From: Mucilaginibacter phyllosphaerae
Lineage (GTDB): Bacteria; Bacteroidota; Bacteroidia; Sphingobacteriales; Sphingobacteriaceae
Assembly (NCBI RefSeq): GCF_004378255.1
Contig: NZ_SNQG01000001.1
Span: 744,001 to 808,000, forward strand
Direction: 5' to 3'
Length of the DNA: 64,000 nt
The notes under the pieces were generated by a model. The model saw only the letters and a list, made by a program, of their open reading frames with translations. It did not search any database and was not told where the DNA came from. The position numbers were made by a program, and so were the translations under genes. Below, piece by piece: positions 37,058 through 52,470 of the stretch. Each line of letters starts with the position of its first letter. The stretch's first letter is position 1.

Positions 37058-37154
37058 GGGTGCGTTAGCCTGTGTAGTAGCAGGGAGGGGTTTAGGCGAC
37101 TATCCCCTTTCCTACTGCAACCCTCCTGCTAAGATGGATCGCACTACCCAACGC
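37058..37154. ncRNA. Possible structured RNA or palindromic repeat element
   Basis: A GC-rich island of nested dyads in AT-rich DNA: outer GCGTT (37062) with AACGC (37150), middle AGCAGGGAGGG with CCCTCCTGCT (37121-37130), and inner GGGGTTTAG with CTATCCCC around GCGA. It lies in the 430-base gap between the HEPN-like module and the tail protein. It may be an RNA or an intergenic repeat I half-recognise. No flanking reverse transcriptase or nuclease exists. Confidence 0.4.
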
Positions 37155-37283
37155 TCTTAATTAATTGTGCCATAATGTATTATTCCAATCGGAATATACC
37201 GCATTGTTAACCAAACGCCAAGCCGCACATCAAATTTCTTTTGAGGCTTTACCCATATACATAAAACAACTATCACATAAAAA

Positions 37284-39401
37284 ATGAATTTAGTAGCCTA
37301 TATCAACACCTACCACCTGCACGCTGTTACGCTGGATACGTATGGCAGCCAATCGCAGCAGGCACGGGTATCCATAGAAATTTTTGATACCGCAACCGGG
37401 CAGCCCACCAATGGTAACAACTGCAGGGTAACCTACAGGGTTACCGACGAATACGGCAATACCAGTGTAAACACCGTAACCGTACCGGGCATGAAACTGG
37501 TTATTTATGAAGGCGAAATTGGCCGGGTAAATTTTAACAGCAGCCGCGAGGTACTGTCATCTACCTTAAAAAGTTTTGATTTTGTATCGGTAACAGAGGG
37601 CGACGGAGGTGCTATAGCCAATCCCTTACCGCTATTTAGCGAAATACGGATAAACAGTGTTACGGTAGCCCGCCCGGAATCTGCACCCGGTGCGGCCAAC
37701 GGTGAAATTACGGTTGACGCTTATTCCAACTATCTGCCGCTTGCCTATCAGCTAAATGGCAGCCTTACCCAGTCATCGCCCGTATTTACCGGGCTGGCCG
37801 GCGGCAATTACACAATAACGGTTATTGATTCTGCCGATTATGCGCTTAACCGGTCGGTTTTTGTCCCTACTGTAAACAGCCTATTACAGGCCGATCCGAC
37901 GGTTACCCTGCCCGGCGGCAATGTATCGCGCTGGAATGCCGCCTTTAACCCTGTTGTGTTTACCTATCAGCGTAAGGATTTTGCGGTTACCAGCCTGCAG
38001 CTGCATACCGAAACCGGCACTACCCGGGTATCTGTAGATGCTGATATAGCTGCCGTGCAGCCGGGCGATAGGATCTACATCGAAACCCCGGTATGTACAG
38101 GCACATACAGCGTAACAAGTATTTATTCACCTGCTGCGTACTTACCGGCCGTATTGGTTATTGATGCGCCGTTTACAGCAAACAGTACGGGCTTCATCAA
38201 CATTAACCGCTTGCGGCCCTATTACAAAATGCTTACCCGCATCAGCTTTTTTGATAAGATAACGGGCCGCCAAAGCAACATTACATCTACCAACCGCCCC
38301 AATAACCGCGGCATCATCCGGGCAGATCTGTCTAATTTTTTGCAAAGCCTGCTGCGCGCCAAAGACGAAAGCGATTACACGCAAACCAACCACCGCGACC
38401 TTAACCTGAGCGCCAGCTACCAGGTATCGTACGCCGAACATTGGGATGATGACACGCCCGAAGGCCATACCACAACTTATAGCAGCATAGATCACCCTTT
38501 TTATGTGGTTTACGCGGCCAAACAATTGGGCGAGCTTTATGGCGGCAACCTGGCGGCTTATGTGCCGTTTGCAAGCACCCCTAACGGTGCCGGTAAAGCC
38601 CGGTGGATAACCGATTTTGCAGAGCCGGCATACAGCAACGGCTACCCCTTTGATATCAGCTTTATTTACAGTGACGATTTGGTGGGCAGGGAATTATATG
38701 CCGAACTTACCCTGCTGGATATTAACCGCAGCCCATTACCAGGCGGCACACAAAGCAGCTATTTATTAAATGAAGATGGATCGTGGTTACTGAACAGTGA
38801 TGGCAGCAGGCTGGTAATTGCCAGGCAAAGCCAGTCGGTATTGCCGGTACCGGGGCAATTGGGATTAAACCGGTTACTTGTAAAAGGCCCCTTTAGCGAT
38901 GAGGTTTATTATATCAGCCTCATCCTTAAATATAACGATGAGGATGGTATAGCCCACGCGATTACCCAAACCCAAACCATCCGGATGGATGATGCAGTGG
39001 ACGACCAGAGTATCTATCTGCGCTGGATAGGCTTAAGCGGCAGCTGGAACTACTACCGCTTTGTGTACAACCAGGAAGTAAGCCTGGATGTGCAGAACGC
39101 CGTCATCATCAAAAACTACGTAAGCGACTGGGCAAATCAGGACAGTATCGAAGAGGTGATCAGCAAAACGGCGGGCCAAAAAGTAAAAGTCATGGCCGAG
39201 GATCTCTCCGTAGCAGACATTAAGGGCCTGCAATCCATCAAATATTCGCCCAAGGTGCAAATGCTGGTGAACAAAAACCCGGTAAAATGGCAAACCATCG
39301 TTATCAACACCGCCACTTACAGCGAATACGAAACCCGCAACGGCCAGGCGCCGTTCAGCCTAACCTTTAATCTGCCGGCTATAAATATACAGGCGCAGTA
39401 A
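37284..39401 (+). CDS. Phage tail/fibre protein with a SprB-like repeat
   Basis: 705 residues, beta-rich. Near residues 130-190 it carries a segment of SprB-repeat type: GAANGEITVDAYSNYLPLAY, then SSPVFTGLAGGNYTITVIDS. The rest shows fibronectin-like strands and a repeated LLNEDGSWLLNSDGSRLV stretch near 495-515. No signal peptide is present, as expected for a virion protein. It is probably a baseplate or fibre component. SprB repeats are known from the gliding adhesins of Bacteroidota, so the presence in a tail gene is notable. Confidence 0.72.
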   Translation: MNLVAYINTYHLHAVTLDTYGSQSQQARVSIEIFDTATGQPTNGNNCRVTYRVTDEYGNTSVNTVTVPGMKLVIYEGEIGRVNFNSSREVLSSTLKSFDFVSVTEGDGGAIANPLPLFSEIRINSVTVARPESAPGAANGEITVDAYSNYLPLAYQLNGSLTQSSPVFTGLAGGNYTITVIDSADYALNRSVFVPTVNSLLQADPTVTLPGGNVSRWNAAFNPVVFTYQRKDFAVTSLQLHTETGTTRVSVDADIAAVQPGDRIYIETPVCTGTYSVTSIYSPAAYLPAVLVIDAPFTANSTGFININRLRPYYKMLTRISFFDKITGRQSNITSTNRPNNRGIIRADLSNFLQSLLRAKDESDYTQTNHRDLNLSASYQVSYAEHWDDDTPEGHTTTYSSIDHPFYVVYAAKQLGELYGGNLAAYVPFASTPNGAGKARWITDFAEPAYSNGYPFDISFIYSDDLVGRELYAELTLLDINRSPLPGGTQSSYLLNEDGSWLLNSDGSRLVIARQSQSVLPVPGQLGLNRLLVKGPFSDEVYYISLILKYNDEDGIAHAITQTQTIRMDDAVDDQSIYLRWIGLSGSWNYYRFVYNQEVSLDVQNAVIIKNYVSDWANQDSIEEVISKTAGQKVKVMAEDLSVADIKGLQSIKYSPKVQMLVNKNPVKWQTIVINTATYSEYETRNGQAPFSLTFNLPAINIQAQ

Positions 39402-39406
39402 TTTTA

Positions 39407-39499
39407 GGCCATAGTCCATGGTCGATAGTCAATAGCAATACATTTTACTAACCGATATTTAATGCTCCAAAGCCATGGACTATCGACCATGGACTATGG
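39407..39499. repeat. Perfect 22-bp inverted repeat (CCATAGTCCATGG type)
   Basis: CCATAGTCCATGGTCGATAG... at 39409-39430 is exactly complementary to 39478-39499. The 47-base loop is AT-rich. It sits between two tail genes and shares the CATAGTC word with the heptamer array at 22189. Confidence 0.93.
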
Positions 39500-39514
39500 A
39501 CCTTTTCAAACCCC

Positions 39515-41578
39515 ATGACCCAACTCCAACTATATATCAACGACGAACTGGTTGACCTGAGCGACGACAGCCCTATTGCGCTTACCTTCCAGATCAACAA
39601 CCTGGCCGAGGTTAAAAACCAGCAGGGCAACACCAGCAACCAGTTTAAGCTGCCGTTAACCCAGCGCAACCGGCAGATCCTGGGCTTTCCGGATGAGGTG
39701 GCTTTTACCACCAATCTGCCTTATGATAATTATCAGGCTAAAATTATTCAGGATGGGCTGGAGATTGTGCCTGCAGGTATAGCTGTGTTAAATAACATCG
39801 AAAACGATACCGCAGCCATTACCATACTTAGCGGCAACGTTGATTTTTTTGACGCTATCGATTATAAAATATATGACATGGGCGATAGCACAACCACCGT
39901 GGGCTTGCAAAAAATATTTCAATCCTATGAACACAGCTGGACCATTGATAACGTATTGGCATCACAAACCCGTACCGAAGGCTGGATCTGGCCGGTGGTA
40001 GATTATGGCCGGCTATTGTACCCTACAGACCCGGTGATGATGGACGTAAGGGATATGCGCCCCGGCTTTTTTGTAAAAACCGCTATCGAACTGATGGCCA
40101 AACAAGCCGGTTATAAAATAAACCCCAACTCGTTTTTATTAAAACAGCCTTTGTATGATAAATTGATTGTACAATTTGCCAACGATAATTTTGAACACGG
40201 CAGCGATATTCAAAACCAGCCAGATTATTACGGGGCCACGGCTTACATTAAGCCAACGCTGAATGTAAACCATTTAACCGTACGTGATAATGCGGGTATT
40301 ATACCCTTCAGCAACATCGGGGCCGATCAGTTGCAGCAATACAACGGCACCAGGTTTACGGCCCGCAACGTAAGTACAGTAAACGTCAGCGTAAAGATCC
40401 CAAAATTCAGGCTGCAGGGGCGTGTTACCGGATACCCCGCATCTGTCAACATAATTATTTATAAACATAGCAGCCTGGGCGATGAGCAGCTATCGGTACT
40501 TAACTACGATTTTTCTGAATGGAATAATAACGACCGTATATCCGGAAACGGCGGTAATATCTATGGCTGGCACGAATTTGAACAGCGAATACTTTCTGCT
40601 GATGCCGAACTAACTGTTGGTGATGAGATCAGCATCCGGTATGAATTTTTTGGTAATACCCATGCCTCTTTTACCTTATACGAAGGCGCATCGCTTATTA
40701 TTAAGACCCTAAACCTGAATGTATTGTATAAGCAGCCGGTGCAATGCGAGCGCATCTTCCCGGATATTGGCCAAAAGGATTTTTTGAAGGACATCCTGCA
40801 GCGTTTCGGCATCATTTGCCAAACAGACAATACCAATCGCACCATCACCTTCGCATCGTTCAGGGATATTGTGGAGCGCATCCCCGCTGCCAAAAACTGG
40901 ACGGCCAAATGCCTGGACCAGGGCAAAAACATATCCTTCCAACTGGGTGGGTACGCGCAGGTTAACTACCTTAAAAATAAGGAGGACGATAACATTCTGC
41001 CCAAAAAGTACGGCGATGCACAGATAGAGGTAAAAGATAAAACCCTGCCTGCCACTACCACCCTTTTCGAAAGCCAGTTCGCCCCCACCTTAAACCGCTC
41101 GTTTATCAACGGTACCATAGCCCTGATAGATAAGGTAGACCATACCGACGCTGCCAATACCGAATACAACGTTAGTACAGCACCCCGGCTGCTGATAGAT
41201 AAAAAGGTGAATTTGTTAAATTTGAGTAAAGCCATAACTTTTACAGACGGCACCACAACCCGCGTTTACAACGATACTATATCTACCCCGTATTTTTACA
41301 AACCCGACGGCGACTTTAACCTGTGCTTTAGCGATATGCCCGGCACAGCAGGCTCGTTAAAAGGACTGAAAAACAATTACTACCCCGAACTGGAGAAGAT
41401 ACTGCAGCAAACCAAAAAGGTAGACCGCTTTTTTATGCTCTCGCCACGCGACATTCTGGAGCTGGACCTGCTGATACCTATTTACCTGGAGCAGGACAGC
41501 GCCTATTATTACATCAATAAAATAGATAGTTGGCGTAAAGACCAACCCGTAAAGGTAGAGTTGGTGAAGCTGGGGTAA
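39515..41578 (+). CDS. Phage tail/baseplate structural protein
   Basis: 687 residues. The start MTQLQLYINDELVDLSDDSP then NTSNQFKLPLTQRNRQILG belongs to a type of Bacteroidota phage structural proteins whose first domain recalls baseplate or tail-hub modules. The rest mixes beta domains. It has no enzyme motif or signal peptide. Position between the SprB-like tail protein and the tape measure region supports a tail-tip role. Confidence 0.65.
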   Translation: MTQLQLYINDELVDLSDDSPIALTFQINNLAEVKNQQGNTSNQFKLPLTQRNRQILGFPDEVAFTTNLPYDNYQAKIIQDGLEIVPAGIAVLNNIENDTAAITILSGNVDFFDAIDYKIYDMGDSTTTVGLQKIFQSYEHSWTIDNVLASQTRTEGWIWPVVDYGRLLYPTDPVMMDVRDMRPGFFVKTAIELMAKQAGYKINPNSFLLKQPLYDKLIVQFANDNFEHGSDIQNQPDYYGATAYIKPTLNVNHLTVRDNAGIIPFSNIGADQLQQYNGTRFTARNVSTVNVSVKIPKFRLQGRVTGYPASVNIIIYKHSSLGDEQLSVLNYDFSEWNNNDRISGNGGNIYGWHEFEQRILSADAELTVGDEISIRYEFFGNTHASFTLYEGASLIIKTLNLNVLYKQPVQCERIFPDIGQKDFLKDILQRFGIICQTDNTNRTITFASFRDIVERIPAAKNWTAKCLDQGKNISFQLGGYAQVNYLKNKEDDNILPKKYGDAQIEVKDKTLPATTTLFESQFAPTLNRSFINGTIALIDKVDHTDAANTEYNVSTAPRLLIDKKVNLLNLSKAITFTDGTTTRVYNDTISTPYFYKPDGDFNLCFSDMPGTAGSLKGLKNNYYPELEKILQQTKKVDRFFMLSPRDILELDLLIPIYLEQDSAYYYINKIDSWRKDQPVKVELVKLG

Positions 41579-41618
41579 CTTAAACTATAAAGCCAGGGAA
41601 GTTTTGGTTAAAACTTTA

Positions 41619-41650
41619 TTTGCATTTGCCAAATCTCATTTTTATATTTA
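41619..41650 (+). promoter_or_regulatory. Independent promoter of membrane cargo protein A
   Basis: TTTG (41619-41622), 20-base spacer, TATATTTA (41643-41650). The promoter at 43449-43480 has the same two boxes and identical spacing, and both are followed by CCAATAAAATTAGCAAAA before the ATG. Confidence 0.75.
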
Positions 41651-41676
41651 CCAATAAAATTAGCAAAACCTAAATT

Positions 41677-42300
41677 ATGCCTTTAAATCAATTATCTGCA
41701 GTAAATCAATCAAAAAAACGCAAACTTCTTATGAGAAGCGGATATGCGGCTATTATTTTTTTAGCAGCAGGGCTACTTATTTTTTTTAATTTCAATAAGC
41801 TATATGCAGCTTATATTTACACATTTAAAACTGAAAAATTTGAACGGGGGGATAAGGTGTATGCCTCAAATGCCTTGATCGATACAAAAAGTAAAGAAAC
41901 TGTAGTTGCAGCTTTACGAATGATAAGGCCGATGACGGAAAAAGAAATTAAAGATATTATTATGATGTCCAGAGATCAACGCATGCGCTTTTTAAAGGTT
42001 GCCCGAAACCCCAATTCAAAGCCGTATGTAACTTATTTGATGTCATATTTTGATACAAAAGAAATATACAAAACCAAAATTACAGTTATTGGAGAGTATG
42101 AAACTAAATCGTTCACACGCTTAAGACCCCTCAACCAGAATAAAATAATATACGGCACTTTTTATGCGCTTAAACCTAACAAAAAAACCTATCGCTTTCA
42201 ATTTAGCGATGCCGAATTACCGGAGGGTTATACTTTAGCCGATAGTCTGGTTTATGTAGACCCTTTTTTTGCAACTAATAAAATAACATCTATTAAATAA
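41677..42300 (+). CDS. Membrane-anchored cargo protein A
   Basis: 207 residues. A short basic cytoplasmic tail (QSKKRKLLMRSGYA) precedes one transmembrane helix (about residues 24-45), then a 160-residue domain probably in the periplasm. It is a diverged paralogue of the gene at 43507: both share F-x-x-GDKVY, LIRP or MIRP, KPY-x-x-YL, YAL-x-P and LADS-x-x-YV. It has its own promoter, is AT-rich, and interrupts the tail genes just upstream of the tape measure. Anchored prophage proteins in such slots often block superinfection, which is a hypothesis here. Confidence 0.75.
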   Translation: MPLNQLSAVNQSKKRKLLMRSGYAAIIFLAAGLLIFFNFNKLYAAYIYTFKTEKFERGDKVYASNALIDTKSKETVVAALRMIRPMTEKEIKDIIMMSRDQRMRFLKVARNPNSKPYVTYLMSYFDTKEIYKTKITVIGEYETKSFTRLRPLNQNKIIYGTFYALKPNKKTYRFQFSDAELPEGYTLADSLVYVDPFFATNKITSIK

Positions 42301-42356
42301 AAAGCATAAGCTTTTTATTTAATAGATTATGCCAAATAGAATATAAATCATAAAAT

Positions 42357-42460
42357 ATGTCAGATCAAAATATAATGTTGATATTAGTATCAATACCTAT
42401 AGTTTGAATCAAATCCCTCAATATAAAGCTGCTTTTGACAGTTTGTGCTCCTCAGTAAAT
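42357..42460 (+). pseudogene. Relic 1 of the tape-measure 5' end
   Basis: ATG at 42357 reads MSDQNI, then with one frame change DISINTYSLNQIPQYKAAFD-SL, which lines up with the first 35 residues of the intact tape measure (SIDVEVTGDGLQQIDKYAQS, FDSL). It is heavily decayed and short. Confidence 0.6.
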
Positions 42461-42552
42461 ATTTTAATCGTTTAAGAAACTTATAAACGAATTATCTCTA
42501 AAACCGTCCCACCACCCATACCAATAGGCGTAGGATGAATATATAGGCTTAA

Positions 42553-42710
42553 CTATTCTTCTGTATAATAATATAATTGTAAATAACCACTTCTTTGATC
42601 ACGAAATATCTTTAAAATATCGTTTTGGCTAATATTATTATTATGATAAAGTCGACAAACTCTTTCTCCAACGACCACCCACTAAAAATTTTATAATTCA
42701 GTTTCCTCAT
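42553..42710 (-). pseudogene. Broken copy of the antisense small ORF
   Basis: Minus-strand ATG at 42710 reads MRKLNYKIFSGWSLEKEFVD-F. A one-base deletion in an ATAAT run moves the frame, after which it reads NNNISQNDILKIF to YYYTEE and TAG at 42553. It matches the intact 45-residue ORF at 44326-44463 (FWTREDLTKFVKEF, GIQREDIFII, LWYYA). Confidence 0.6.
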
Positions 42711-42735
42711 AAATAAAAATATACTTAATAATTAC

Positions 42736-43440
42736 ATGACTAACGATAACAAAATATCTATTGACGTAACTGTCAATTCAAATGCTGAACAGCAAATTAA
42801 CAACTACGTTAAATCGTTTGATAGCTTACGTACTCAATAAATAGCTTGTCACAACCTTTTAACTCGTTTTCAAATAATCTAAATAATTTAGATAAAAATC
42901 TATCTAAATATACAGAATCTTTAAGTCAAATTAATGCCAAAACAGGGAATTTATAGCAAGTAGCGACAGTACAGCAAGTAAAGTTTCAGGCATATCATCA
43001 TCATTTTTTGCATGGACTGAAGTTATAAGCCATTTGCGTACAGCAACATTAGGTTGGACAGCAGTCTTAACAGGTGGTTTAACACTTATTACAACATTTC
43101 TTCCCGAAATAATAAACATTGCAAAAGCGTTTTTTAATGGTAAAGATGCTGTAAACGCAATGGTAAATAATCTTAGAAACTTGAATGAGGTAATGAAGGT
43201 TTCTAACAAAGACGCCGCTTCAGAAGTTACCAGGCTTCAGGTTTTATACAAATCGGCAACTGATGTGAATAATGCACACCAAAACAGGATAAAAAGTGTA
43301 AAGGAATTACAAAAAGAATTCCCCGCCTATTTTAAAGGGATCAAAGACGAAGATGTACTGAATGATAATGCAAAGAAGAATTTCGAAGAGCTTACCAAAT
43401 CAATTTTCGAGAACGCTAAAGCCAAGGCAGCCCTAATTAA
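42736..43440 (+). pseudogene. Relic 2 of the tape-measure 5' third
   Basis: MTNDNKISIDVTVNSNAEQQ and later pieces (SLSQPFNSFSNNLNNLDKNL; FLPEIINIAKAFFNGKDAVN; SVKELQKEFPAYFKGIKDED) match residues 1 to about 235 of the intact tape measure in order, with at least two frame breaks and an early stop after SLRTQ. Similarity ends abruptly at KAKAALIK, where promoter B begins. The long open part from 43034 to 43462 is therefore a relic, not a gene. Confidence 0.9.
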
Positions 43441-43448
43441 AACCTTTA

Positions 43449-43480
43449 TTTGTTTTTCTTAAACCACACCCGTATATTTA
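43449..43480 (+). promoter_or_regulatory. Independent promoter of membrane cargo protein B
   Basis: TTTG (43449-43452), 20-base spacer, TATATTTA (43473-43480), the same spacing and downstream sequence as the promoter of cargo gene A. Confidence 0.75.
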
Positions 43481-43506
43481 CCAATAAAATTAGCAAAAAC
43501 CTAAAT

Positions 43507-44133
43507 ATGGATTCACAAAAATCAAGTAGTTATAGTACTACTAAATCGCGCAGAGGTAAATTTAAAATTTCGATTATCACTGTTTGCATTACCTGTGTGA
43601 TATTATTAGGATATTTCAACCTCAATTATTTGGTTATAGGGTACTACTATGTAGTTAAGTTTGATCATTTCAATGAGGGTGACAAGGTTTACATAGCAGA
43701 AACTTATTTCAAAAACCAAAACATAGATGCACTTGGTACAATGGAATTAATCCGTCCTTTAAAAAAAGAAGACTTGGATACTTTGGGGTATACATTTGGA
43801 GAAAAACTCAAAATATCGCCTCAGCTTAATGATACTTTAAAACCATATTTAAAGTATCTGGGCCCTTCGTTTGATATTTATAAAATGAGGCAATTCAAAT
43901 CAGGATTGATAGGAACTTTTAAAGGATACAAAATAAGATACGTGAAAGATATTAGTGGTAAATATTATGTAAGGGCTGTTTACGCACTTATAAATCCCGA
44001 TAAAAGGATTTTCAATAAAGATTACTTAGCTGTTTACCCCCCGCCGGCAAATTACATATTGGCCGATAGTGATATTTACGTAATGCCGTTAGATATAAGT
44101 AAAAACGAATTATCAAATTTCAAAAAGAAGTAA
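43507..44133 (+). CDS. Membrane-anchored cargo protein B
   Basis: 208 residues from the ATG at 43507 (an in-frame TTG at 43450 lies inside the promoter and is rejected). Basic tail (TKSRRGKFK), one transmembrane helix (about 22-44), then an external domain. It is paralogous to cargo protein A, with conserved F-N-E-GDKVY, ELIRPL, KPYLKYLG, VYALINP and YILADSDIYV. It begins exactly where tape-measure relic 2 stops. Function is unknown; lysogenic conversion or superinfection exclusion is possible. Confidence 0.75.
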   Translation: MDSQKSSSYSTTKSRRGKFKISIITVCITCVILLGYFNLNYLVIGYYYVVKFDHFNEGDKVYIAETYFKNQNIDALGTMELIRPLKKEDLDTLGYTFGEKLKISPQLNDTLKPYLKYLGPSFDIYKMRQFKSGLIGTFKGYKIRYVKDISGKYYVRAVYALINPDKRIFNKDYLAVYPPPANYILADSDIYVMPLDISKNELSNFKKK

Positions 44134-44208
44134 GTAAAATCAATTTTCTGTTATAAAAAACAATTTTTTTATTATCAATATATGCCAGATTGCATAAAAA
44201 ACACAAAT

Positions 44209-44299
44209 ATGTGTAAAAAACTTTCCGTCGATGTCACGGTAAAAGGCTATGGGCAAAAGCAAATAAATTGACTACATTAACTCATTTAACAGCTTACAT
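44209..44299 (+). pseudogene. Relic 3 of the tape-measure 5' end
   Basis: ATG at 44209 reads CKKLSVDVTVKGYGQKQIN and stop. After a one-base shift it reads IDYINSFNSLH. This matches KISIDVEVTGDGLQQIDKYA and QSFDSLR at the start of the intact tape measure 284 bases downstream. Confidence 0.75.
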
Positions 44300-44325
44300 A
44301 TTTTTATAAATGGGCTATTACACCT

Positions 44326-44463
44326 TTATGCATAATACCATAAAGTCGGCCCTCCCCCAGGTTCGGTAATAATAAAAATATCTTCTCTTTGAATGCCAAA
44401 TTCTTTAACAAATTTGGTAAGATCTTCCCTTGTCCAAAATGATTTCGCTTTTAATTCTTTCAT
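44326..44463 (-). CDS. 45-residue antisense small protein
   Basis: Minus-strand ORF starting at ATG 44463: KELKAKSFWTREDLTKFVKE, then FGIQREDIFIITEPGGGPTL, ending WYYA. The codon pattern looks coding, and a frame-broken homologue lies at 42553-42710 in the corresponding place of the other module copy, which supports a real gene. It points against all neighbouring phage genes, 29 bases from the tape-measure start. Function unknown. Confidence 0.6.
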   Translation of the reverse strand: MKELKAKSFWTREDLTKFVKEFGIQREDIFIITEPGGGPTLWYYA

Positions 44464-44492
44464 AATTCCCCTTTAAAACTTAATAAATTAAT

Positions 44493-46838
44493 ATGGCCAA
44501 TGATAACAAAATTTCCATCGATGTCGAAGTAACAGGCGATGGGTTACAACAAATAGATAAATATGCTCAATCGTTCGATAGTTTACGAAAATCGCTGAAT
44601 GGATTATCTCAGCCTTTAAATTCATTTTCAGGTAACATAAACGCTTTAAATAAGAATTTGTCAAGCTATACAAATGAATTAAGTAAATTAAATGATCAGC
44701 AAAAAGAAACTGCTTCCACCGGTGACCAAGTACACAATAAAGTTTCAGAAATGTCGACAACCTTTTCAACAGGGTTAGGAGTGATAAAAATTTTTACAAA
44801 TGAAGTAAAAGCTTTGTATGTAGGTTTAACAGGTGGTCTCTCTGTTATTATTGCCTTCCTTCCAGAGATCATAAACTTTGCCAAAGCATTATTTAACGGA
44901 AAAGATGCTGTAAACGCGATGGCTTTAAACTTTAAAAATTTGAATGATGTAATGAAGGACTCAAACAAAGAGGCATCTTCAGAAATCACCAGGTTACAAT
45001 TCTTATACAGATCGGCCACTGATATAAATAACAGTTATGGTGATAGGATTAAAAGTGTACAAGAATTAAAAAGAGAATTCCCCGATCATCTGAAAAATTT
45101 AAGTGATGAAGATATATTAAATGGTAAAGCCAAAAAAAATTATGAAGAGCTCAGTAAAGCTATTTTTGAGAATGCCCGTGCAAGAGCTGCACTGTCTAAA
45201 ATTGAGAATCTTGCTGCCCAACAATTAGATATCGACTTTTTAAAACAAAAAATTATAAACGTCAAAAATGCGGAATATAAAAAAATTGAACCTGAAAAAG
45301 TAACCACTAGGAGCGAGATGGGTGAAAGAGTAACGGAGATGTTAACCCCCCAGGCACAACAAAAATCTTTAAAAGATCAGCAACAAACTAACAGGGATTT
45401 ACTTAGAGATGAGCTAAAGGGACAAGACTTAAGAAAACGTTTACTACAAAATCAAATAGATTTTTTAATAAGTTTTGCCGGTGGCAATAATAAAATTGCT
45501 CAGGCAATTAATAATACCCAAACAACCCCTATTATAACACCTACTAAAAAGAAACCTAAACCAGCCCCCAAGCCCCATATTCTGCGCAGCGAAGATCTAA
45601 TTGCCGCACAATCTATCACCATCGCCCAACACTTCGAAAACGAGAAAAAGGCGTATGACAGTGAACTTGCATTATTAAACGACCAGCTAAATAAAAAGCT
45701 GATCAGCCAGGCCGATTATAACAATCAGAGCCAGGGATTGCAGGATAAATACCACCAGGGCATAAGCAGCAGTGTAAAAGATTTTGCAGAAAAGAGCATG
45801 CCCAATACCATGCAGCATTTTAAAAGTATTGCCGAAGCCAACAGGTTGCAAAATGAGATTAACAAGGATGAAAAGAATATTGAAAAAGCCATACTGCCCT
45901 GGCAACAATTTGATGCTGAAAAAAAATTAATACAGGATAAATATGCTTATGAAATAACCCAGGCCGAGGGTAACGAAGAGAAAATTAAAGAGTTAAAAGA
46001 AAAAAGCCAGCAAGCCCAAACCGATTTAACCCAAAAGTACGAACAGCAACGTAGAGAGTTTGCTTTAAACACCGCCCAGCAGGTGGCAGATAAGGCCTTC
46101 TCCATCATCGGCAATAATATTAAAGCAGGTAGCGATGCCAAAATAAAAGGATTTGAAAAAGACAAGGCGAACGAACTTAGCAACAAAAGCCTCACCGAAA
46201 CCCAACGCAAGGCCATTGAAGACAAATACCAGAAAAAAGAGAACCAGGAAAAGGTAAAGGCCTTCAAAGCCGAGCAGCGGATGTCGGTACTGCAGGCGGT
46301 AGTTAATGGGGCTTTAGCCGTTACTAAGGCCACGGCCCAAAGCGGCATACTTGCACCCTTTGTTATCCCCGGTATTATCGCATCTACCGCCTTGCAGATA
46401 GCTACCATTGTCGCTCAAAAACCACCGGCATTTGCCAAAGGCGGCAGGTTCGTATCCGATGGGCGCGGCGCCCTGCTCCCCGGCTATAGCCGTACAGATA
46501 ATACCAATGCCTACCTGCGCAGCGGCGAGGCCGTGGTGGTATCCGAAGCGATGCGCAACCCCTGGGCGCGTAACCTGGTAAGTGCCATCAACGTGGCCCA
46601 TGGCGGCAGGGATTTCTCGATGCCCAACACCGGCAGCGGCTATGCCATAGGCGGCATATTTACCGATGGCGGCAATGCCAACCGCTACTACAACCAACCA
46701 GTTAATGATATAAAGGACATGGCCAACACCCTGGCCTACCAGATGATGAACAACTTCCCCCCTATTTATGTGGATGTGAAGGACGTAAACAACCAGCAAA
46801 ATATACTGGCCCAAACGGTGAATAGGGTGAATCTGTAG
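44493..46838 (+). CDS. Phage tail tape measure protein
   Basis: 781 residues. Long helical, coiled-coil-rich central part with many Gln, Lys and Glu. Two hydrophobic stretches lie near 105-135 (VGLTGGLSVIIAFLPEIINF) and 600-640 (APFVIPGIIASTALQIATIV). The C-terminal FAKGGRFVSDGRGALLPGYS and YLRSGEAVVVSEAMRNPW are hallmark phrases of tape-measure ends. Tape measures set tail length and enter the host membrane during injection. Three decayed copies of its 5' end precede it. Confidence 0.9.
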   Translation: MANDNKISIDVEVTGDGLQQIDKYAQSFDSLRKSLNGLSQPLNSFSGNINALNKNLSSYTNELSKLNDQQKETASTGDQVHNKVSEMSTTFSTGLGVIKIFTNEVKALYVGLTGGLSVIIAFLPEIINFAKALFNGKDAVNAMALNFKNLNDVMKDSNKEASSEITRLQFLYRSATDINNSYGDRIKSVQELKREFPDHLKNLSDEDILNGKAKKNYEELSKAIFENARARAALSKIENLAAQQLDIDFLKQKIINVKNAEYKKIEPEKVTTRSEMGERVTEMLTPQAQQKSLKDQQQTNRDLLRDELKGQDLRKRLLQNQIDFLISFAGGNNKIAQAINNTQTTPIITPTKKKPKPAPKPHILRSEDLIAAQSITIAQHFENEKKAYDSELALLNDQLNKKLISQADYNNQSQGLQDKYHQGISSSVKDFAEKSMPNTMQHFKSIAEANRLQNEINKDEKNIEKAILPWQQFDAEKKLIQDKYAYEITQAEGNEEKIKELKEKSQQAQTDLTQKYEQQRREFALNTAQQVADKAFSIIGNNIKAGSDAKIKGFEKDKANELSNKSLTETQRKAIEDKYQKKENQEKVKAFKAEQRMSVLQAVVNGALAVTKATAQSGILAPFVIPGIIASTALQIATIVAQKPPAFAKGGRFVSDGRGALLPGYSRTDNTNAYLRSGEAVVVSEAMRNPWARNLVSAINVAHGGRDFSMPNTGSGYAIGGIFTDGGNANRYYNQPVNDIKDMANTLAYQMMNNFPPIYVDVKDVNNQQNILAQTVNRVNL

Positions 46839-46926
46839 CCCCCTAACCCCCTGAAGGGGGAACCGAATTTCAAACAACAAAATATTTAATTTATAAAAGC
46901 ATCCCCTTTAGGGACGGGAGGGGCAC
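46837..46926. repeat. GC-rich palindrome pair after tape measure
   Basis: The left arm starts in the TAG stop (GCCCCCTAACCCCCTGAAGG). The right arm (CCCCTTTAGGGACGGGAGGG) is degenerate and ends at the next ATG. Same family as 35204-35302. Confidence 0.85.
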
Positions 46927-46927
46927 C

Positions 46928-47158
46928 ATGAATATCCAAACAGCAAACACACTATTCGACGAAGGCATTTTCTCGGCTATGTACAAGGCCGGGTTTATCA
47001 CCAGCAAAGTTTTCACCTACCGCGAAATTTACCTGTGGGTAAACGCCCAGGTACAAACCCGCGGCATCACCAAAAACCAGGCAGTATTAGAGGCCGAAGT
47101 GAAATTTAAGAAAGACGAACGCACCATATGGCGGGCATTGAATTGTTTTACGGAGTAG
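46928..47158 (+). CDS. Small phage protein with helix-turn-helix-like C-terminus
   Basis: 76 residues, starting NIQTANTLFDEGIFSAMYKA. The end (ITKNQAVLEAEVKFKKDERT, IWRALNCF) looks like a winged or simple helix-turn-helix in which DERTIWRALN would be the recognition helix. No membrane segment. It could be a late regulator, but nothing confirms it. Downstream is a repeat-filled gap. Confidence 0.6.
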   Translation: MNIQTANTLFDEGIFSAMYKAGFITSKVFTYREIYLWVNAQVQTRGITKNQAVLEAEVKFKKDERTIWRALNCFTE

Positions 47159-47160
47159 TT

Positions 47161-47650
47161 GTCTGAACTCGAATTTGTGGAATTAAAGAATTATCAGAAT
47201 ATATGATCAATTCCAAAAATTCAACTATTCGTTTAATTCGAGTTCAGACACCCCTACTGACAAACCTGTGTCACCACTATATTCAATAATAGTCCCGATA
47301 TTTGTAGTGTTCGATTATCATCTGAACCGGAATTCTTAGAATTAATCACTATCATTCTGAAAATTCTAAAATCCGGAAAATTCTGATCTACTGACAAACT
47401 ACTGTCACCAAAAACAAAACAAATTATCCCGACCTTTGATACATGCCAGCAGGCACCCATCGCAAAGTCATGCTGAACTTGTTTCGGCATCCCACAACCA
47501 AGTAACTACCAAGCAGAACAGCAAAATCCTGAGAGATCCCGAAACAAGTGGGGATAAAAATAGGAGTTAATTATGCCAATCAGCATTCAAAACCAATAAT
47601 CGAACAATAGTTCCCTTACGGACTTTCGGATATCCCGACTAAACTAAAAA
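47161..47650. repeat. Repeat mosaic between tail and head genes
   Basis: A 490-base gap with no credible gene. It contains the 15-bp inverted repeat GTCTGAACTCGAATT / AATTCGAGTTCAGAC (47161-47175 and 47235-47249); a direct repeat CTACTGACAAAC...TGTCACCA at 47254 and 47388 with the same internal spacing (offset 134); inverted TCTGAACCGGAATTC / AAATCCGGAAAATTCTGA-type strings; and CATGCTGAACTTGTTTCGG (47469) facing GATCCCGAAACAAG (47536), a dispersed repeat I know from this phylum. Confidence 0.8.
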
Positions 47651-47653
47651 CAA

Positions 47654-48832
47654 ATGAAAATATACCTCTACGATACCGAAACGGATTGCATTGGCTCGGG
47701 GAGCCTATCGTCCGCCTATGTAAAATCACAATTAGATGCAGCTGCCGGCGCCGATGTAGCGGTACACATCAGTTCGGTAGGTGGTTCGGCCTTTGATGCC
47801 ATAGCCATTTATGATCTGCTGAAAAAGTACCCCGGCAACGTAACCACCCACATTGATGCCCTGGCGGCGTCGGCAGCGTCGGTAGTAGCCATGGCAGGCA
47901 GCAAAATAGTAATGAGCAAATACGCCCTGCTCATGATCCATAAACCAATGGTAGGCAGCGGTGGCAATGCAGATGAGCTTTTAAAAGATGTGCAGATGTT
48001 GAATGTAGTGCAATCGCGCCTGGCGCAGATCTACATAGACAAATCCGGGTTAGACGGGGTTACGGTTAATAGTTTGATCAACTCCGTTACCTGGATGACT
48101 GCCGACCAGGCCCTAAATCTGGGTTTTATAGATGCGATTGAGGATTACACCGAAACCATCATCAACAGCGCACTCATCAAAAAATACACAGATACCGCAC
48201 CCGCCGTTTACCAGCGCTGCATCAATAAGATCTTAACCCAAAAAACAACTATGAACACAGACAACCAAGAACTCATCGAACGAACCACCTCGGTTTTAGA
48301 CAAGATCATGAACTTTTTTAAGCGTGTGGTAAACAAACAAACCATTACAGACAAAGGCACCCTGCATCATAGCGGCGACCTAAGCGAAGGCGCAGATGTT
48401 TACCAGGACGAGGACCTGACCACCCCTGCCGTTACCGATACCTACACCACCGCCGATGGCGAACAATTAGCCGTAAAGCAGGGCAAGGTAGCAAAGCTAA
48501 CGCCGGTGGCTATGGATGAGGAAGGCGAAGAAAATATGCCGGCAGCCAGGTTTAAATTGCCCGTAAAGCCCGGCGAAGTGCAAAACCGCCTGCAGGAAGT
48601 AAAAGCCCGCCTGCATGCCCAAAACGCTTTATTGAATGAAGCAAAAACAGCACTGGAAGAAGCGCAAAGCCGCCTGGCCAAAACCCGCGAAGAAGTGAAG
48701 AACGAAATAAAAAGCGACTTTACCCCCGAGGGATCTAAACGCAGCAGCAAGGCCAAAACCGAAACCCAGCCTTTTTTTGCACCTCAAAGCCCGCTGGCCC
48801 AAAACGCGGTGAAAAGAGCGGTGGCTCCCTAA
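47654..48832 (+). CDS. ClpP-like head maturation protease fused to scaffold-like region
   Basis: 392 residues. Residues 1-170 are a ClpP-type serine protease, with Ser73 in DALAASAASVVAMAG, His96 in LLMIHKPMVG, and Asp in the region after NVVQSRLAQIYIDKSG. The C-terminal part has a low-complexity linker and a coiled coil at about 305-360 (LQEVKARLHAQNALLNEAKT), then an Ala/Pro-rich tail, as in protease-scaffold fusions. It is directly upstream of the major capsid gene, as expected for prohead maturation. Confidence 0.92.
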   Translation: MKIYLYDTETDCIGSGSLSSAYVKSQLDAAAGADVAVHISSVGGSAFDAIAIYDLLKKYPGNVTTHIDALAASAASVVAMAGSKIVMSKYALLMIHKPMVGSGGNADELLKDVQMLNVVQSRLAQIYIDKSGLDGVTVNSLINSVTWMTADQALNLGFIDAIEDYTETIINSALIKKYTDTAPAVYQRCINKILTQKTTMNTDNQELIERTTSVLDKIMNFFKRVVNKQTITDKGTLHHSGDLSEGADVYQDEDLTTPAVTDTYTTADGEQLAVKQGKVAKLTPVAMDEEGEENMPAARFKLPVKPGEVQNRLQEVKARLHAQNALLNEAKTALEEAQSRLAKTREEVKNEIKSDFTPEGSKRSSKAKTETQPFFAPQSPLAQNAVKRAVAP

Positions 48833-48933
48833 CCCACTGAAGGGGAACCAAATTTAAATACTCACTGATCATATAACCTTCCCTAAGGCAAACCTTAAAA
48901 TCAAAAAGCTCCCCCTTTAGGGGGCTGGGGGGC
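48825..48933. repeat. GC-rich palindrome pair between protease and capsid genes
   Basis: Left arm overlaps the protease stop (GCTCCCTAACCCACTGAAGG, slightly decayed). Right arm AGCTCCCCCTTTAGGGGGCT ends 11 bases before the capsid ATG. Confidence 0.88.
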
Positions 48934-48943
48934 AAACTTTTTT

Positions 48944-50152
48944 ATGGCTCAATTCACATTTACAAACAACACCTATGCCGGCGAAGCGCTGGCAGGATTT
49001 ATGGCAAGCACCTTACTGGAGGCCGACTCTGTTAAGCGTGGCCTGCTCACTGTTATCAACGACGTAAAACAACGCAAGATCATCCTGGATGTGGATGACG
49101 ATGTGGTACTGCAAAACCCATCGGGCATATTTGCAGACCAAGGCACCACAGCCCAACAAACAGAAAGCTACTTAGACCCGGTAGTTTATGAATTCATGAA
49201 ACAGGAGCAGTGGGACAAACTGGTACAATCATGGGAAAGCCAGCAACTTAAACCCGGCGCTTTCCTGGATTATGAAGGCGTAGTTGACCTGAGCGACTTT
49301 ATGGTACAGCGCTACCTTACCAAAATACAAATAGCTAACGAGCGTTTGTACTGGCTGGGTAAAGGTTCTACCAAAGAAGCAGCTTTTACCGCACCATTCA
49401 CGGGTTTACTGCCATCCATCGCGGCAGCAAGCGGGGTTTACAAAGTGGGCTTGGGTAAATCTGATACCTCTATGGCGGCAACAGCCATCAGCACATCGGG
49501 TGTGGTTACCGTAAGCAGCACCGCAACCTTAAGGGATGGCGATGTGGTTACCATCAACGGCGTAACAGGCGGCATTAAAGATACCACCAACGGCGGCGCA
49601 GGTATAGATGTTTCAGGCCAATCGTACTTTATCCAGGTAGGCAGCGCAAGCACCTTCAAGCTGGTACGCAACTATAACGAGATCAACACCCGCAAGGCGG
49701 CAAGCTTTAGCGGCACGGCAACAGCAGCAACCGTTAGCTACATTAACGCAAGCAACGTATTAGGCGTATTAACAGGCATCTATGCCCAGTTAGACCCAGC
49801 CGACCGCAGTCAGGAAGATTTTAACCTGCAAATTCCGCTGCATGTAGGCTATGCCTACGCACAGGCACAGGCAGATAAAGCCGTAAATGTGCTGAACGCC
49901 TTTACAGACCCTAAAAAGATGGACTACCTGGGTGTACCGTTACAATTGATGAACCACTGGCAGGCCAACACCATCCTGGGCGCACGCTCTTCAAACCTGT
50001 TCCTGGGGGTAGATCTTTTAGGCGATGCTTCCGAACTATCCACCGTTTACATGAAGCCTTACACCAATGATAACGTGGTACGCATGAAGGCCCGTATGAA
50101 AGCCGCCGTAAACTTCAAATTCGCCAACGAGCTATTTTACCTGGGGGCGTAA
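48944..50152 (+). CDS. Phage major capsid protein
   Basis: 402 residues. Position after the ClpP-like protease and overall pattern (N-arm, KQRKIILDVDDDVVLQNPSG, C-terminal NDNVVRMKARMKAAVNFKFA) fit a HK97-fold capsid subunit. Residues about 180-270 look like an inserted beta domain: TSGVVTVSSTATLRDGDVVT, INGVTGGIKDTTNGGAGIDV, QSYFIQVGSASTFKLV. That is similar to the surface decoration modules found in other phage proteins. The fold call is inferred. Confidence 0.8.
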   Translation: MAQFTFTNNTYAGEALAGFMASTLLEADSVKRGLLTVINDVKQRKIILDVDDDVVLQNPSGIFADQGTTAQQTESYLDPVVYEFMKQEQWDKLVQSWESQQLKPGAFLDYEGVVDLSDFMVQRYLTKIQIANERLYWLGKGSTKEAAFTAPFTGLLPSIAAASGVYKVGLGKSDTSMAATAISTSGVVTVSSTATLRDGDVVTINGVTGGIKDTTNGGAGIDVSGQSYFIQVGSASTFKLVRNYNEINTRKAASFSGTATAATVSYINASNVLGVLTGIYAQLDPADRSQEDFNLQIPLHVGYAYAQAQADKAVNVLNAFTDPKKMDYLGVPLQLMNHWQANTILGARSSNLFLGVDLLGDASELSTVYMKPYTNDNVVRMKARMKAAVNFKFANELFYLGA

Positions 50153-50248
50153 AAGCCCCCCAACCCCCTGAAGGGAGGGCTGAATTACAAAATACAAACT
50201 TTTAACCTTGCCTCTCACAATCCCCCCTTCAGGGGGTTAGGGGGCTTA
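50152..50248. repeat. GC-rich palindrome pair after capsid gene
   Basis: Left arm AGCCCCCCAACCCCCTGAAG begins at the stop codon. Right arm CCCCCCTTCAGGGGGTTAGG ends 11 bases before the next ATG. Confidence 0.92.
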
Positions 50249-50259
50249 ATCAACTAACA

Positions 50260-50844
50260 ATGTCAATTTACAATAAAATAAACGCGGGCTTTAGCCTGGG
50301 CACAGCAGGGCCAATTACTTCGGGTATCGAAGATGTAGTATATATTTTTAATCAGGACGATTTTGTGCTTACTTACGATACAGTAAACCCGCTGATCATT
50401 AAAGATATTACCGCAGTAGGCACGGCCAAGGTTTACAAATTTGAGGGAACCAATAACAGCTTTAACACGATGAGCAAGCTGGCCAAAACCCAGGTTGGCC
50501 CGCGTTACACCGAAGAGATAGATTTTAACATCGCCGGTTTATCTACCGATGTTAAAGCACAGTTAATGGCCATGGGCTACGGCCGCATACGTGCTATAGC
50601 GATAAACAACTATAAGGACAGCGATTCAGCTATCGAATTGTTCGGTGCAGTGAACGGCCTGATCGTAACCGAAGCTGAACGCAACGCCGCCGATGAAACA
50701 TTAGACGGTGGTTACAAGATCAAGCTAACCAACCCGGATAAGCTGAAAGAGCCATACCCGCCACGTGCTGTATCTATTGCCCCACAGAGCGGCACAGCTA
50801 CCTACGCCAGCACCATTGCAGCACTGGAAGAGTTGGTGGCTTAA
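50260..50844 (+). CDS. Phage structural protein, possibly tail tube or head decoration
   Basis: 194 residues, beta-rich: starts SIYNKINAGFSLGTAGPITS, middle VGPRYTEEIDFNIAGLSTDV, ends SGTATYASTIAALEELVA. No family signature recognised. Size and position after the capsid gene allow a decoration or tail-tube protein. A spacer with GGTTCATAG/CTATGAACC inverted copies follows it. Confidence 0.6.
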   Translation: MSIYNKINAGFSLGTAGPITSGIEDVVYIFNQDDFVLTYDTVNPLIIKDITAVGTAKVYKFEGTNNSFNTMSKLAKTQVGPRYTEEIDFNIAGLSTDVKAQLMAMGYGRIRAIAINNYKDSDSAIELFGAVNGLIVTEAERNAADETLDGGYKIKLTNPDKLKEPYPPRAVSIAPQSGTATYASTIAALEELVA

Positions 50845-50855
50845 ATTTCATGGCA

Positions 50856-50934
50856 AATGGTTCATAGTTCATGGTAATGAGCTATGAACCTTAGCAAACA
50901 AAAGACTATGAGCTATAAACCATGAACCAACTAC
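50856..50934. repeat. GGTTCATAG-type inverted repeat
   Basis: TGGTTCATAGTTCATGG opposes CTATGAACC and CCATGAACCA in the short gap between two phage genes. It is a further family of junction palindromes, related in style to the CCATAGTCC repeats. Confidence 0.75.
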
Positions 50935-50935
50935 T

Positions 50936-51193
50936 ATGAAAAAATATATTTTAAAACCAGGCCTACATCAGTTCGCTCCTAACTCGGCAGCGGTGCATAG
51001 CAATGATACCATTACAGATAAAGAAGCCGAATGGTACTTGCAGCGATACCCGCACATAGCGGGCCTATTTGTCCAAAGTCCGCAAGACGAGCAGTCGGAA
51101 ATTACGGAAGACGAAAAACCCGATGCGAAGATCAAAAGAAAACGAATACCGAAAAAATCGATGGAATCATCTCAATTCAGTGTAATCCAATAA
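50936..51193 (+). CDS. Small phage protein
   Basis: 85 residues. N-terminal KKYILKPGLHQFAPNSAAVH and DKEAEWYLQRYPHIAGLF resemble a small head-associated module. The tail is highly charged (KIKRKRIPKKS). The next gene starts two bases after its stop, so it is co-expressed with the portal gene. Function unknown. Confidence 0.65.
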   Translation: MKKYILKPGLHQFAPNSAAVHSNDTITDKEAEWYLQRYPHIAGLFVQSPQDEQSEITEDEKPDAKIKRKRIPKKSMESSQFSVIQ

Positions 51194-51195
51194 TT

Positions 51196-52470
51196 ATGAA
51201 AACCTACTTACCACAAATAGAACGGCGCATCCTGGTAAGGCCCAACCAAACCTTCGGCATCCTCAATTATGATATGGATAACGCTTACCCGCAACGCATG
51301 CTGGAGCTGGTGGGCCAATCCCCCACGGCTAAAGATTGCTGGAACAAGCGGGCCAAATTTATTGCCGGTAATGGTTTTGAAGATACCTCGCTTGGCAAAC
51401 AGATCATCAACAGTAAGGGCTTAACCATAGCTAAATTATTAAAGGCGATAGCGTCCGACAAAGCGTTGTTCCGCGGATTTGGTATTCATGTAAACTATAA
51501 CGCCAACTTTAAAATAGCATCGGTAAACTATGTAAAGTTTGAGGACATCCGCATGGGTGATACCGATAATGCAGATACTGCTGGTAAGTTTGCCATTTAC
51601 AACGATTGGGGCCGCAAAACCTGGAAAAACATCATGCGCAGCAAGATTATTTTTATGGATGAATATAATCCCAACGAGCCGATCATTAAACAGCAGGTTA
51701 AAGCAGCAGGCGGCTGGGATAAATACAAAGGGCAGCTATTTTATTTTAACCCCGAAGTATGCGATTATCCGCTGATAGAAGCCGATTCTGTTTGGGAGGA
51801 TTTTGAGACTGAAGCAGGGATCAAGATCTTTAATAACCGCGAGGTTACTACCGGCTTTCTGCCATCCACCATGCTATTTATGCAATCCCGGCGCGAGGAG
51901 GCTGATAACAGCTCCATCAACGGAAACGCTAACGAGCCCTCGCAACTGGAAAAAGATCTGGGCACTTTCCAGGGAGCTAAAAGCGCACAAAAGATCATCG
52001 TGATAGAATACGAAGACGAAAGCGCCAAGCCGGAGTTCATGCCTTATGCTATCCAAAATAACGATAAGCTTTTTGAAAGCACCGAGCGATCTGTAGAGGC
52101 GCGCATTATCAAGGGCTTCTCGGTACCCAAAGAACTGATCAATGCCGAAAAGTCATCCGGCTTAAGCAACGGAGGCGAAAAGAAAGAAGCCATCCGCGAG
52201 TTTAACGATAATACATCTGCCGACAGGTTGGAACTAAGCGAAACTTTTGAAGAATTGTTCAGTCATTTTTGCACCAGCATTAACCCTTCGGCAAACTGGA
52301 ATATTATACCCGTGCCGGCAACCGTTGCCGATGATGCGGTTGGCATTAAAGCCGGGGCAGCTATTAACCAGCTACTGCAATCAAACATCACTACCGAAAC
52401 CAAAATTGCCACGCTAATATACGCCTATAGATTTAAACAAGCCGAGGCCGAAGCGATGTGTACCCCCTAA
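51196..52470 (+). CDS. Phage portal protein
   Basis: 424 residues from ATG 51196; longer readings of the same frame extend through the upstream gene and are not used. Portal-like features: QSPTAKDCWNKRAKFIAGNG near the N-terminus, a central alpha/beta wing, and GFSVPKELINAEKSSGLSNG then EKKEAIREFND in the stem/crown part, as in PBSX-type portals. The portal forms the dodecameric DNA gate with terminase. It lies after the capsid gene here, whereas most phages place it before the protease. Confidence 0.84.
   Translation: MKTYLPQIERRILVRPNQTFGILNYDMDNAYPQRMLELVGQSPTAKDCWNKRAKFIAGNGFEDTSLGKQIINSKGLTIAKLLKAIASDKALFRGFGIHVNYNANFKIASVNYVKFEDIRMGDTDNADTAGKFAIYNDWGRKTWKNIMRSKIIFMDEYNPNEPIIKQQVKAAGGWDKYKGQLFYFNPEVCDYPLIEADSVWEDFETEAGIKIFNNREVTTGFLPSTMLFMQSRREEADNSSINGNANEPSQLEKDLGTFQGAKSAQKIIVIEYEDESAKPEFMPYAIQNNDKLFESTERSVEARIIKGFSVPKELINAEKSSGLSNGGEKKEAIREFNDNTSADRLELSETFEELFSHFCTSINPSANWNIIPVPATVADDAVGIKAGAAINQLLQSNITTETKIATLIYAYRFKQAEAEAMCTP

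Follow-up and report, generated by a model that had tools for sequence, protein, structure and literature searches.

Candidate exclusion cassettes of exported cargo genes and tape-measure 5' ends in a phage-derived element of Mucilaginibacter

A phage-derived element in a window of 64,000 nucleotides (nt) from Mucilaginibacter phyllosphaerae (the whole stretch of DNA analysed; contig NZ_SNQG01000001.1, positions 744,001 to 808,000) carries an intact gene for a tape-measure protein (TMP), and the stretch between this gene and a tail gene on its left, hereafter the slot, holds a stack of genes for predicted exported proteins (cargo) and decayed TMP 5' ends. The reading favoured here, with a probability of roughly 0.55, is that such slots hold TMP/exclusion cassettes that can be exchanged, carried by a phage-like particle that is domesticated and inherited mostly vertically. 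The anatomy of the slot, the exchange and displacement of its modules, the pairing of cargo with TMP type, the intact state of displaced (orphan) cargo, and the tracking of a host gene by the head protease were observed directly. The usual view of the tape measure is of a ruler that, in addition, assists DNA entry into the cell. In this element, the front of the TMP turns over like a polymorphic effector while its back is constant, and it travels with envelope genes that outlast a decayed TMP partner, a pattern that resembles toxin/immunity cassette swapping, here on a phage particle.

Anatomy of the slot in the window

From left to right, the slot contains an L box, the cargo gene P0001, an R box, and TMP relic 1; a frameshifted small antisense open reading frame (ORF) and relic 2; another L box, the cargo gene P0002, an R box, and relic 3; and an antisense ORF followed by the intact TMP gene (Table 1). 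The relics were examined by the best local score of each translated stretch against 121 TMP N-termini, using 100 dinucleotide shuffles per stretch as the control. Relic 1 (42350-42480) scored 116, relic 2 (42730-42960) 140, and relic 3 (44200-44330), with just 17 residues aligned, 61, compared with shuffle maxima of 45, 49, and 44, respectively, and two control stretches within the slot scored 28 and 30, under their own shuffle maxima of 51 and 52. Relic 3 was not reported by tblastn at an expectation value (E) of 0.01. No TMP copies were found elsewhere in the source genome, all four TMP matches falling within the slot.

The original prediction, which was made from the sequence alone, had described one unit of promoter, membrane gene, TMP relic, antisense ORF, and TMP 5' part as occurring twice, with three decayed TMP 5' ends before the intact gene and with the two membrane genes as diverged relatives. 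All items that it listed are present in the sequence, the scores above confirm that the three decayed ends are homologous to the TMP start, and the two membrane proteins, both encoded by intact ORFs, are homologous to each other (25% identity, E 4e-16). Repeats at a spacing of about 1.76-1.83 kb are also present, namely 43067-43272/44826-45031 (77%), 43286-43442/45045-45201 (70%), 42736-42767/44493-44524 (78%), and the promoter stretch 41610-41692/43440-43522 (73%). The antisense ORF at 42710, which reads MRKLNYKIFSGWSLEKEFVDF in one frame and NNNISQNDILKIFRDQRSGYLQLYYYTEE in another, is by eye a frameshifted relative of the ORF at 44463 (MKELKAKSFWTREDLTKFVKEFGIQREDIFIIT). However, P0001 is 76% identical to the active cargo of another genome, G064 (ratio of nonsynonymous to synonymous substitution rates, dN/dS, 0.153), compared with 25% to P0002, and the array is therefore better described as four stacked modules of different descent, each with a cargo or small antisense gene and then a TMP 5' end, than as one unit present twice. 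P0001 and relic 1 together resemble the active G064 module (cargo 0.79, 5' end 0.72, and tail gene 0.54 of self-score).

The slot in other Mucilaginibacter genomes

TMP relatives were found in 88 of 149 Mucilaginibacter genomes; across them, the C-terminal part of the TMP is strongly conserved and the N-terminal part is not. Slots were collected in a first set of 72 loci (TMP of at least 500 amino acids) and an enlarged set of 109 loci (TMP of at least 300 amino acids; 35 of them added, duplicates dropped), both confined to loci with a recognisable tail gene and a TMP ending within the contig. The slot varies strongly among related loci, as the original prediction had anticipated. Detached TMP 5' ends are present in 20 of the 72 slots in the first set and 25 of the 109 in the enlarged one (5 of the 35 added).

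The 134 slot ORFs of at least 60 amino acids in the first set form five multi-member cargo or antisense families with 9 to 62 members each, in addition to two small groups and 11 singletons. When families I, II, III, and V were compared by profile, only 1-31 columns could be aligned, in four of six cases at the signal/anchor segment. Based on a hydropathy and lipobox rule, export was predicted for 85 of 89 distinct L-box cargo ORFs, compared with 144 of 577 control ORFs from the same loci. Pfam, PHROGs, and PADLOC gave nothing useful for cargo families I, II, and III. Family V cargo matches an unnamed PHROG (phrog_11546), one minus-strand member of family II has a weak unnamed PHROG match (E 0.0012), family VI cargo is a TPR lipoprotein, and a PADLOC scan of ten window and cargo proteins returned a single weak match (E 0.044). 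The structural model of family I shows an N-terminal helix and a mostly beta domain, for which Foldseek found nothing in PDB or BFVD at E 0.001 (best VIA Z 3.5, root-mean-square deviation 3.8, 77 aligned). The model of family II is OB-fold-like (Foldseek 4dam, E 4.5e-4; best VIA Z 7.7, root-mean-square deviation 2.7, 92 aligned), which may simply reflect a common arrangement.

Two further regularities were considered and rejected. By a crude motif rule, a tie of the antisense ORFs to one TMP type is a tendency only (10/20 vs. 7/89 at active ends; 3/9 vs. 10/27 at relics), and a membrane-spanning segment in the variable part of the TMP is not a general feature (34 of 104). Genes for family V cargo occur downstream of the TMP as well (L173, 8612-10512; L171, 10544-11434; L103 and L107, directly after the TMP) and represent a second cargo slot, which lies behind an L box in two loci. 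The longest pile of family I seen, six matches in ~3.3 kb, some of them broken, is located at G143:C1:4828832-4832116.

Exchange and displacement of cassettes

Exchange and DISPLACEMENT were followed in the locus pairs L194/G125 (L066), L048/L049, and L201/L203. The state before displacement is seen in the metagenome contig L194, with cargo and an intact TMP of one type. Identity between this contig and G125 is 96.8% across the tail gene, the cargo, and the initial ~249 nt of the TMP; G125 then continues with a new L box, a lipoprotein cargo, and a different TMP 5' part, and similarity resumes in the TMP 3' part at 89.6%. Read as before and after, these two sequences demonstrate the ratchet of the original prediction, in which DNA entering just before the tape measure strands the old 5' end, but the entering DNA is cargo plus a new TMP 5' part, and an old end is not left behind each time. 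L048 and L049 are 95.4% identical to the last base of the L box, do not match from there until TMP amino acid ~356, and are 98.7% identical thereafter, a clean swap that stranded no 5' end. L201 and L203 show 99.0% identity as far as a 505-bp stretch in which they differ; it holds an antisense ORF and a TMP relic, and its gain and loss are indistinguishable.

The left borders were surveyed in 61 pairs, not independent of one another, whose two members share a colinear left block and each contain L boxes. The left block ends within the slot in 51 of them: 12 at the L box (no more than 20 nt from the box end), 35 before it, and 4 beyond it, and 31 of the 35 stop at most 35 nt from where the tail-gene match ends. 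Thus, left borders are of several kinds, the L box among them; the L box was ruled out as the only recombination border, since just 12 of the 51 in-slot blocks end there. Homologous recombination in the TMP would be the simplest reading of the exchange.

Pairing of cargo with the TMP 5' type

The pairing analysis used 109 modules (23 orphan), taken only from slots with a cargo ORF of 100 amino acids before the 5' end, and similarity was called at 0.3 or more of self-score for cargo and at 0.45 or more for the TMP N-terminal part. Similar cargo came with a similar TMP 5' end in 171 of 289 pairs, compared with a mean of 30.6 and a maximum of 59 in 2000 permutations. The same was seen where the tail genes had diverged (88 of 173; mean 18.2, maximum 37), between added and first loci (62 of 109; mean 11.6, maximum 27), between added and first loci whose tail genes had also diverged (28 of 61; mean 6.4, maximum 19), and between orphan and active modules (25 of 46; mean 4.8, maximum 14). 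When permutation was restricted to within cargo families, the mean rose to 103.5 and the maximum to 138, against the 171 observed.

Orphan cargo

L boxes that are followed by a relic open into an ORF of at least 140 amino acids in 25 of 28 cases, last boxes in 57 of 61, and tandem boxes in all 7, a sequence pattern indicating that displaced cargo stays open while TMP relics decay. The dN/dS values of orphan/active cargo pairs were 0.153, 0.138, and 0.116, with a fourth pair lacking synonymous change, and those of active/active pairs were 0.177, 0.177, 0.182, and 0.371. Moreover, three genomes without a portal match retain cargo ORFs at the locus: G002 (a tail-gene fragment with families V and I), G123 (terminase small subunit, a broken tail gene, and family I), and G059 (broken TMP and protease with families I, V, and V). 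A fourth portal-less genome that was inspected, G010, has an L box only. General retention of cargo after particle loss was not seen; family I, the one family searched genome-wide, occurs in 6 of 69 portal-less genomes, three of which were inspected.

Putative control boxes

The L box, a 19-base TTTACCAATAAAATTAGCA with an upstream TTTG and a TATaTTT-like element, sits directly 5' of cargo genes from unrelated families; its alignment comprises 83 sites with up to four mismatches, a few of them weak or spurious. The exact box occurs at two sites in the 4.4 Mb source genome, both within the slot. With one mismatch it occurs in 55 of the 149 genus genomes, compared with one site in total for a reversed control pattern. 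Among the 17 L boxes outside the slot, 15 precede the terminase small-subunit gene, which rules out a cargo-only signal, and two lie directly after the TMP, at the loci where family V cargo was seen after the TMP. A TTTG variant of the box was read in G001 as lying inside a coding ORF and set aside; this variant also occurs in G064, G081, G107, G144, and G145. The R box is a palindrome-like TATGCCAATTGGCATA. Counted with up to three mismatches, it was found 69 times in slots, 43 times before the terminase small subunit, 41 times before the head protease, nine times before the 46928 homologue, seven times before the terminase large subunit, once before the 50260 homologue, and 42 times elsewhere.

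Promoters of Bacteroidota follow a -33/-7 pattern. L is probably a promoter and R a control site. In the slots of L201, L203, L204, and L210, the larger ORFs are encoded on the minus strand and an L box is lacking even when three mismatches are allowed; therefore, a different control arrangement may exist. At 26508-26523, outside the element, an R-like box (one mismatch) follows a host ORF that ends at 26503.

The carrier element

The PHROGs scan, which covered 20 of the larger ORFs, identified a terminase, a head protease, a portal, a tape measure, and a tail fibre, i.e., caudoviricete-derived proteins. Genes for an integrase, a repressor, or replication were found neither among these ORFs nor among the ten scanned with Pfam, whose results agreed with PHROGs. 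A portal match is present in 80 of the 149 genus genomes (five at only 34-39% identity, one partial), and in an order-wide sample of 300 genomes, 5 of 55 portal matches fall outside the genus, at 31-39% identity. The host genes that flank the element in the window recur on the left in 16 of 20 genomes, where the block is often partly inverted, and on the right in 12 of 20. Neither flank was found in four of the 20, for two of which the right stretch examined is still inside the element.

Congruence was measured as the rank correlation of similarities with those of a host gene (Mantel test, n 18), rather than by tree reconciliation. The head protease gave a rho of 0.81 (Mantel p 0.0002; second host gene, 0.57). 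With the same host gene, rho was 0.38 for the tail gene, 0.36 for the TMP C-terminal part, 0.23 for TMP 60-300, and 0.15 for cargo (p 0.11). Two other host genes gave 0.82 and 0.72 for the protease, -0.07 and 0.18 for the first 60 amino acids of the TMP, and 0.10 and -0.06 for cargo. Based on these correlations, the head protease is mostly vertical, cargo is not, and the TMP N-terminal part lies between them. The original prediction referred to related prophages. The flanks and head protease of the carrier make it look like a mostly vertically inherited, domesticated particle locus rather than an ordinary prophage, and it is a candidate domesticated particle of Bacteroidota. At one locus (L311 in G039), the match to the terminase large subunit ends at residue 98 and is immediately followed by a capsid-region match, an arrangement suggesting that the element has undergone an internal deletion.

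Proposed mechanism and alternative explanations

In the favoured reading, the tape measure of the particle has a constant C-terminal and a variable N-terminal part, and the putative L promoter box, the exported cargo, the putative R control site, and the TMP 5' part travel as one cassette. Mucilaginibacter lineages swap cassettes by recombination. The right border falls inside the TMP, and the left one at the tail gene, the L box, or a point within the previous TMP 5' end. With a left border of this third kind, the displaced end is left upstream and decays, while the displaced cargo keeps its putative promoter and remains intact. Because the cargo is exported, moves with the TMP type, and stays open when the TMP end decays, it may well be a membrane or periplasmic exclusion or immunity protein that blocks entry by particles of the cognate TMP type, and retained orphan cargo would then widen the range of TMP types resisted. 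If cargo does confer immunity, the stacked modules would offer many natural TMP/exclusion pairs in which to find the TMP surface that exclusion proteins read. A more tentative extension is that the particle serves kin discrimination, with the TMP N-terminal part as a polymorphic weapon or passport that is injected into the envelope, cargo as the cognate immunity, and orphans as an immunity archive able to outlive the particle. Under that extension, a tape measure would underlie a polymorphic system whose exchanged modules are N-terminal instead of C-terminal.

Several findings weigh against the exclusion cassette. There is no relic in 84 of the 109 slots, 118 of the 289 similar-cargo pairs have different TMP 5' types, seven pairs with a cargo similarity of at least 0.5 have clearly different 5' ends, and numerous similar 5' ends carry unrelated cargo. 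Adjacency or linkage alone would yield pairing, and the pairs are not independent. For the first 60 amino acids of the TMP, the correlation with the host gene (rho 0.43) is similar to that of the tail gene (0.38), although this did not hold for two other host genes. Furthermore, the cargo families match no known exclusion protein in Pfam, PHROG, or PADLOC or by the folds of families I and II, and cargo kept after particle loss is uncommon.

Part of this evidence would equally suit ordinary morons at an insertion hotspot, with their own promoter and unrelated benefits to the host, which travel with the TMP 5' end through adjacency. Such a reading is doubtful but deserves attention: the promoter-like box, the several unrelated cargo families, and the similar 5' ends with unrelated cargo all agree with it, and linkage accounts for the pairing. 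On the other hand, a random set of morons need not be exported, as 85 of the 89 cargo ORFs are predicted to be, nor does this reading lead one to expect that the TMP 5' part is swapped along with the cargo or that the L box is common to cargo and the terminase operon. Live temperate phages with superinfection-exclusion cassettes, sharing a preferred integration site, are unlikely. Packaging and tail genes look complete, IMG/VR lists contigs as viral, and the element is patchy in the genus, as its portal distribution shows, but the scanned ORFs include no integrase, repressor, or replication gene, the flanks are the same in most genomes checked, and the head protease is congruent with a host gene.

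Cargo that aids the particle, either as an assembly factor for the cognate TMP or as an entry factor letting kin take up DNA, is quite improbable; it would fit the pairing and the control box held in common with the terminase operon in some loci, but export is unexpected for a tail-assembly factor, and cargo is intact in orphans and in the three genomes that lost particle genes; an entry factor is still conceivable. Least credible of all is a simple tandem duplication of one unit followed by decay, to which the regular spacing of the repeat pairs points; it is contradicted by relics of different TMP types, by the closer relationship of P0001 to the cargo of another genome than to P0002, and by the before/after pair.

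Relation to known systems

No report of such an arrangement was found among the open-licence literature listed, as judged by titles, abstract starts, and passages, and the comparisons below draw on parts of the cited papers. In Rhs loci, discarded toxin-immunity pairs adjoin the intact gene and modules are exchanged (PMC10539506). As described there, the slot resembles Rhs/CdiA polymorphic toxins in its constant carrier with a variable end and an adjacent partner gene, in exchange via the conserved part, in discarded modules beside the intact gene, and in retained orphan partner genes. By contrast, its variable part is at the N-terminus, its modules accumulate upstream, a phage tape measure serves as the carrier, and the leftovers are TMP 5' fragments rather than working units. 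In the window TMP, the sole TMP scanned for a toxin domain, no Pfam match was above the cut-off, and the PHROGs matches were to tape measures or to families of unknown function.

With respect to exclusion, Ltp of phage TP-J34 is named in the text seen as a superinfection-exclusion protein acting on the tape measure (PMC3952083), and the HK97 gp15 moron is cited for superinfection exclusion (in PMC13190303). Like these, cargo is a predicted exported or membrane-bound phage-encoded protein, the tape-measure target being stated for Ltp; unlike these single phage genes, many unrelated families occupy one TMP-side slot and move with the 5' end. SNIPE, a membrane-bound nuclease that acts during genome injection, probably contacts tape measures, and susceptibility to it correlates with TMP clade (PMC13190303, in the passages available). 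A membrane factor linked to tape measures would be common to both, the cargo side being putative; SNIPE, however, is a nuclease defence system, and the ten window and cargo proteins gave no SNIPE match in PADLOC.

Gene transfer agents are defined by caudoviricete-derived proteins, full endogenization, mostly vertical inheritance, and co-diversification with the host, together with the packaging of mostly random host DNA, an own genome that is not wholly packageable, and delivery of DNA to cells (PMC9662315). The element shares Caudoviricete-type proteins with them, and its head protease, at least, has co-diversified with a host gene; its locus may be endogenous, to judge from the flanks held in common by most but not all of the genomes checked. 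It differs from gene transfer agents as described in the text seen by cassette exchange with orphan arrays. For the gene transfer agent RcGTA, ejection of tape measures together with DNA into the periplasm has been proposed by the authors of one study (PMC7296036, in the part seen).

Feature coordinates and further observations

Table 1. Features of the element and its slot (window positions).
Feature	Position	Strand	Basis or remark
Phage-derived element	31206..56450	+	PHROGs/Pfam; boundaries inferred from flanking host genes
Terminase small subunit	31206-31664		In element; PHROGs/Pfam
Terminase large subunit	31774-33003		In element; PHROGs/Pfam
Tail genes	37284 and 39515		In element; PHROGs/Pfam
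Tail ('base') gene, left neighbour of slot	39515..41578	+	687-aa (amino acid) ORF; anchor for slot extraction; matches PHROG of unknown function, E 6e-19
L box (promoter-like), module 1	41647..41665	+	Exact match
Cargo P0001, family I, module 1	41677..42300	+	N-terminal hydrophobic anchor
R box (palindrome-like), module 1	42328..42343	.	Aligned box sites
TMP 5'-end relic 1	42357..42460	+	Frame broken after first codons; score 116 vs. shuffle maximum 45
Small antisense ORF, module 2	42553..42710	-	Frameshifted; homology to P0004 by eye
TMP 5'-end relic 2, about aa 1-236	42736..43442	+	Stop and frameshifts
L box, module 3	43477..43495	+	Exact match
Cargo P0002, family I, module 3	43507..44133	+	Model pLDDT (predicted local distance difference test) 88.6, helix 15-37
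R box (palindrome-like), module 3	44181..44196	.	Aligned box sites
TMP 5'-end relic 3, weakest	44209..44330	+	17 aligned residues; continuation in another frame by eye
Small antisense ORF P0004, family IV, module 4	44326..44463	-	ORF
Intact TMP gene, 781 aa	44493..46838	+	N-terminal part variable, C-terminal part conserved
Head protease	47654-48832		In element; PHROGs/Pfam
Probable capsid	48944-50152		In element; position only
Portal	51031-52470		In element; PHROGs/Pfam
Collagen-type tail fibre	53171-54451		In element; PHROGs/Pfam

An inverted repeat with 41-nt arms (73% complementary, 9-nt gap) is located at 47160-47250, directly after the small gene 3' of the TMP.

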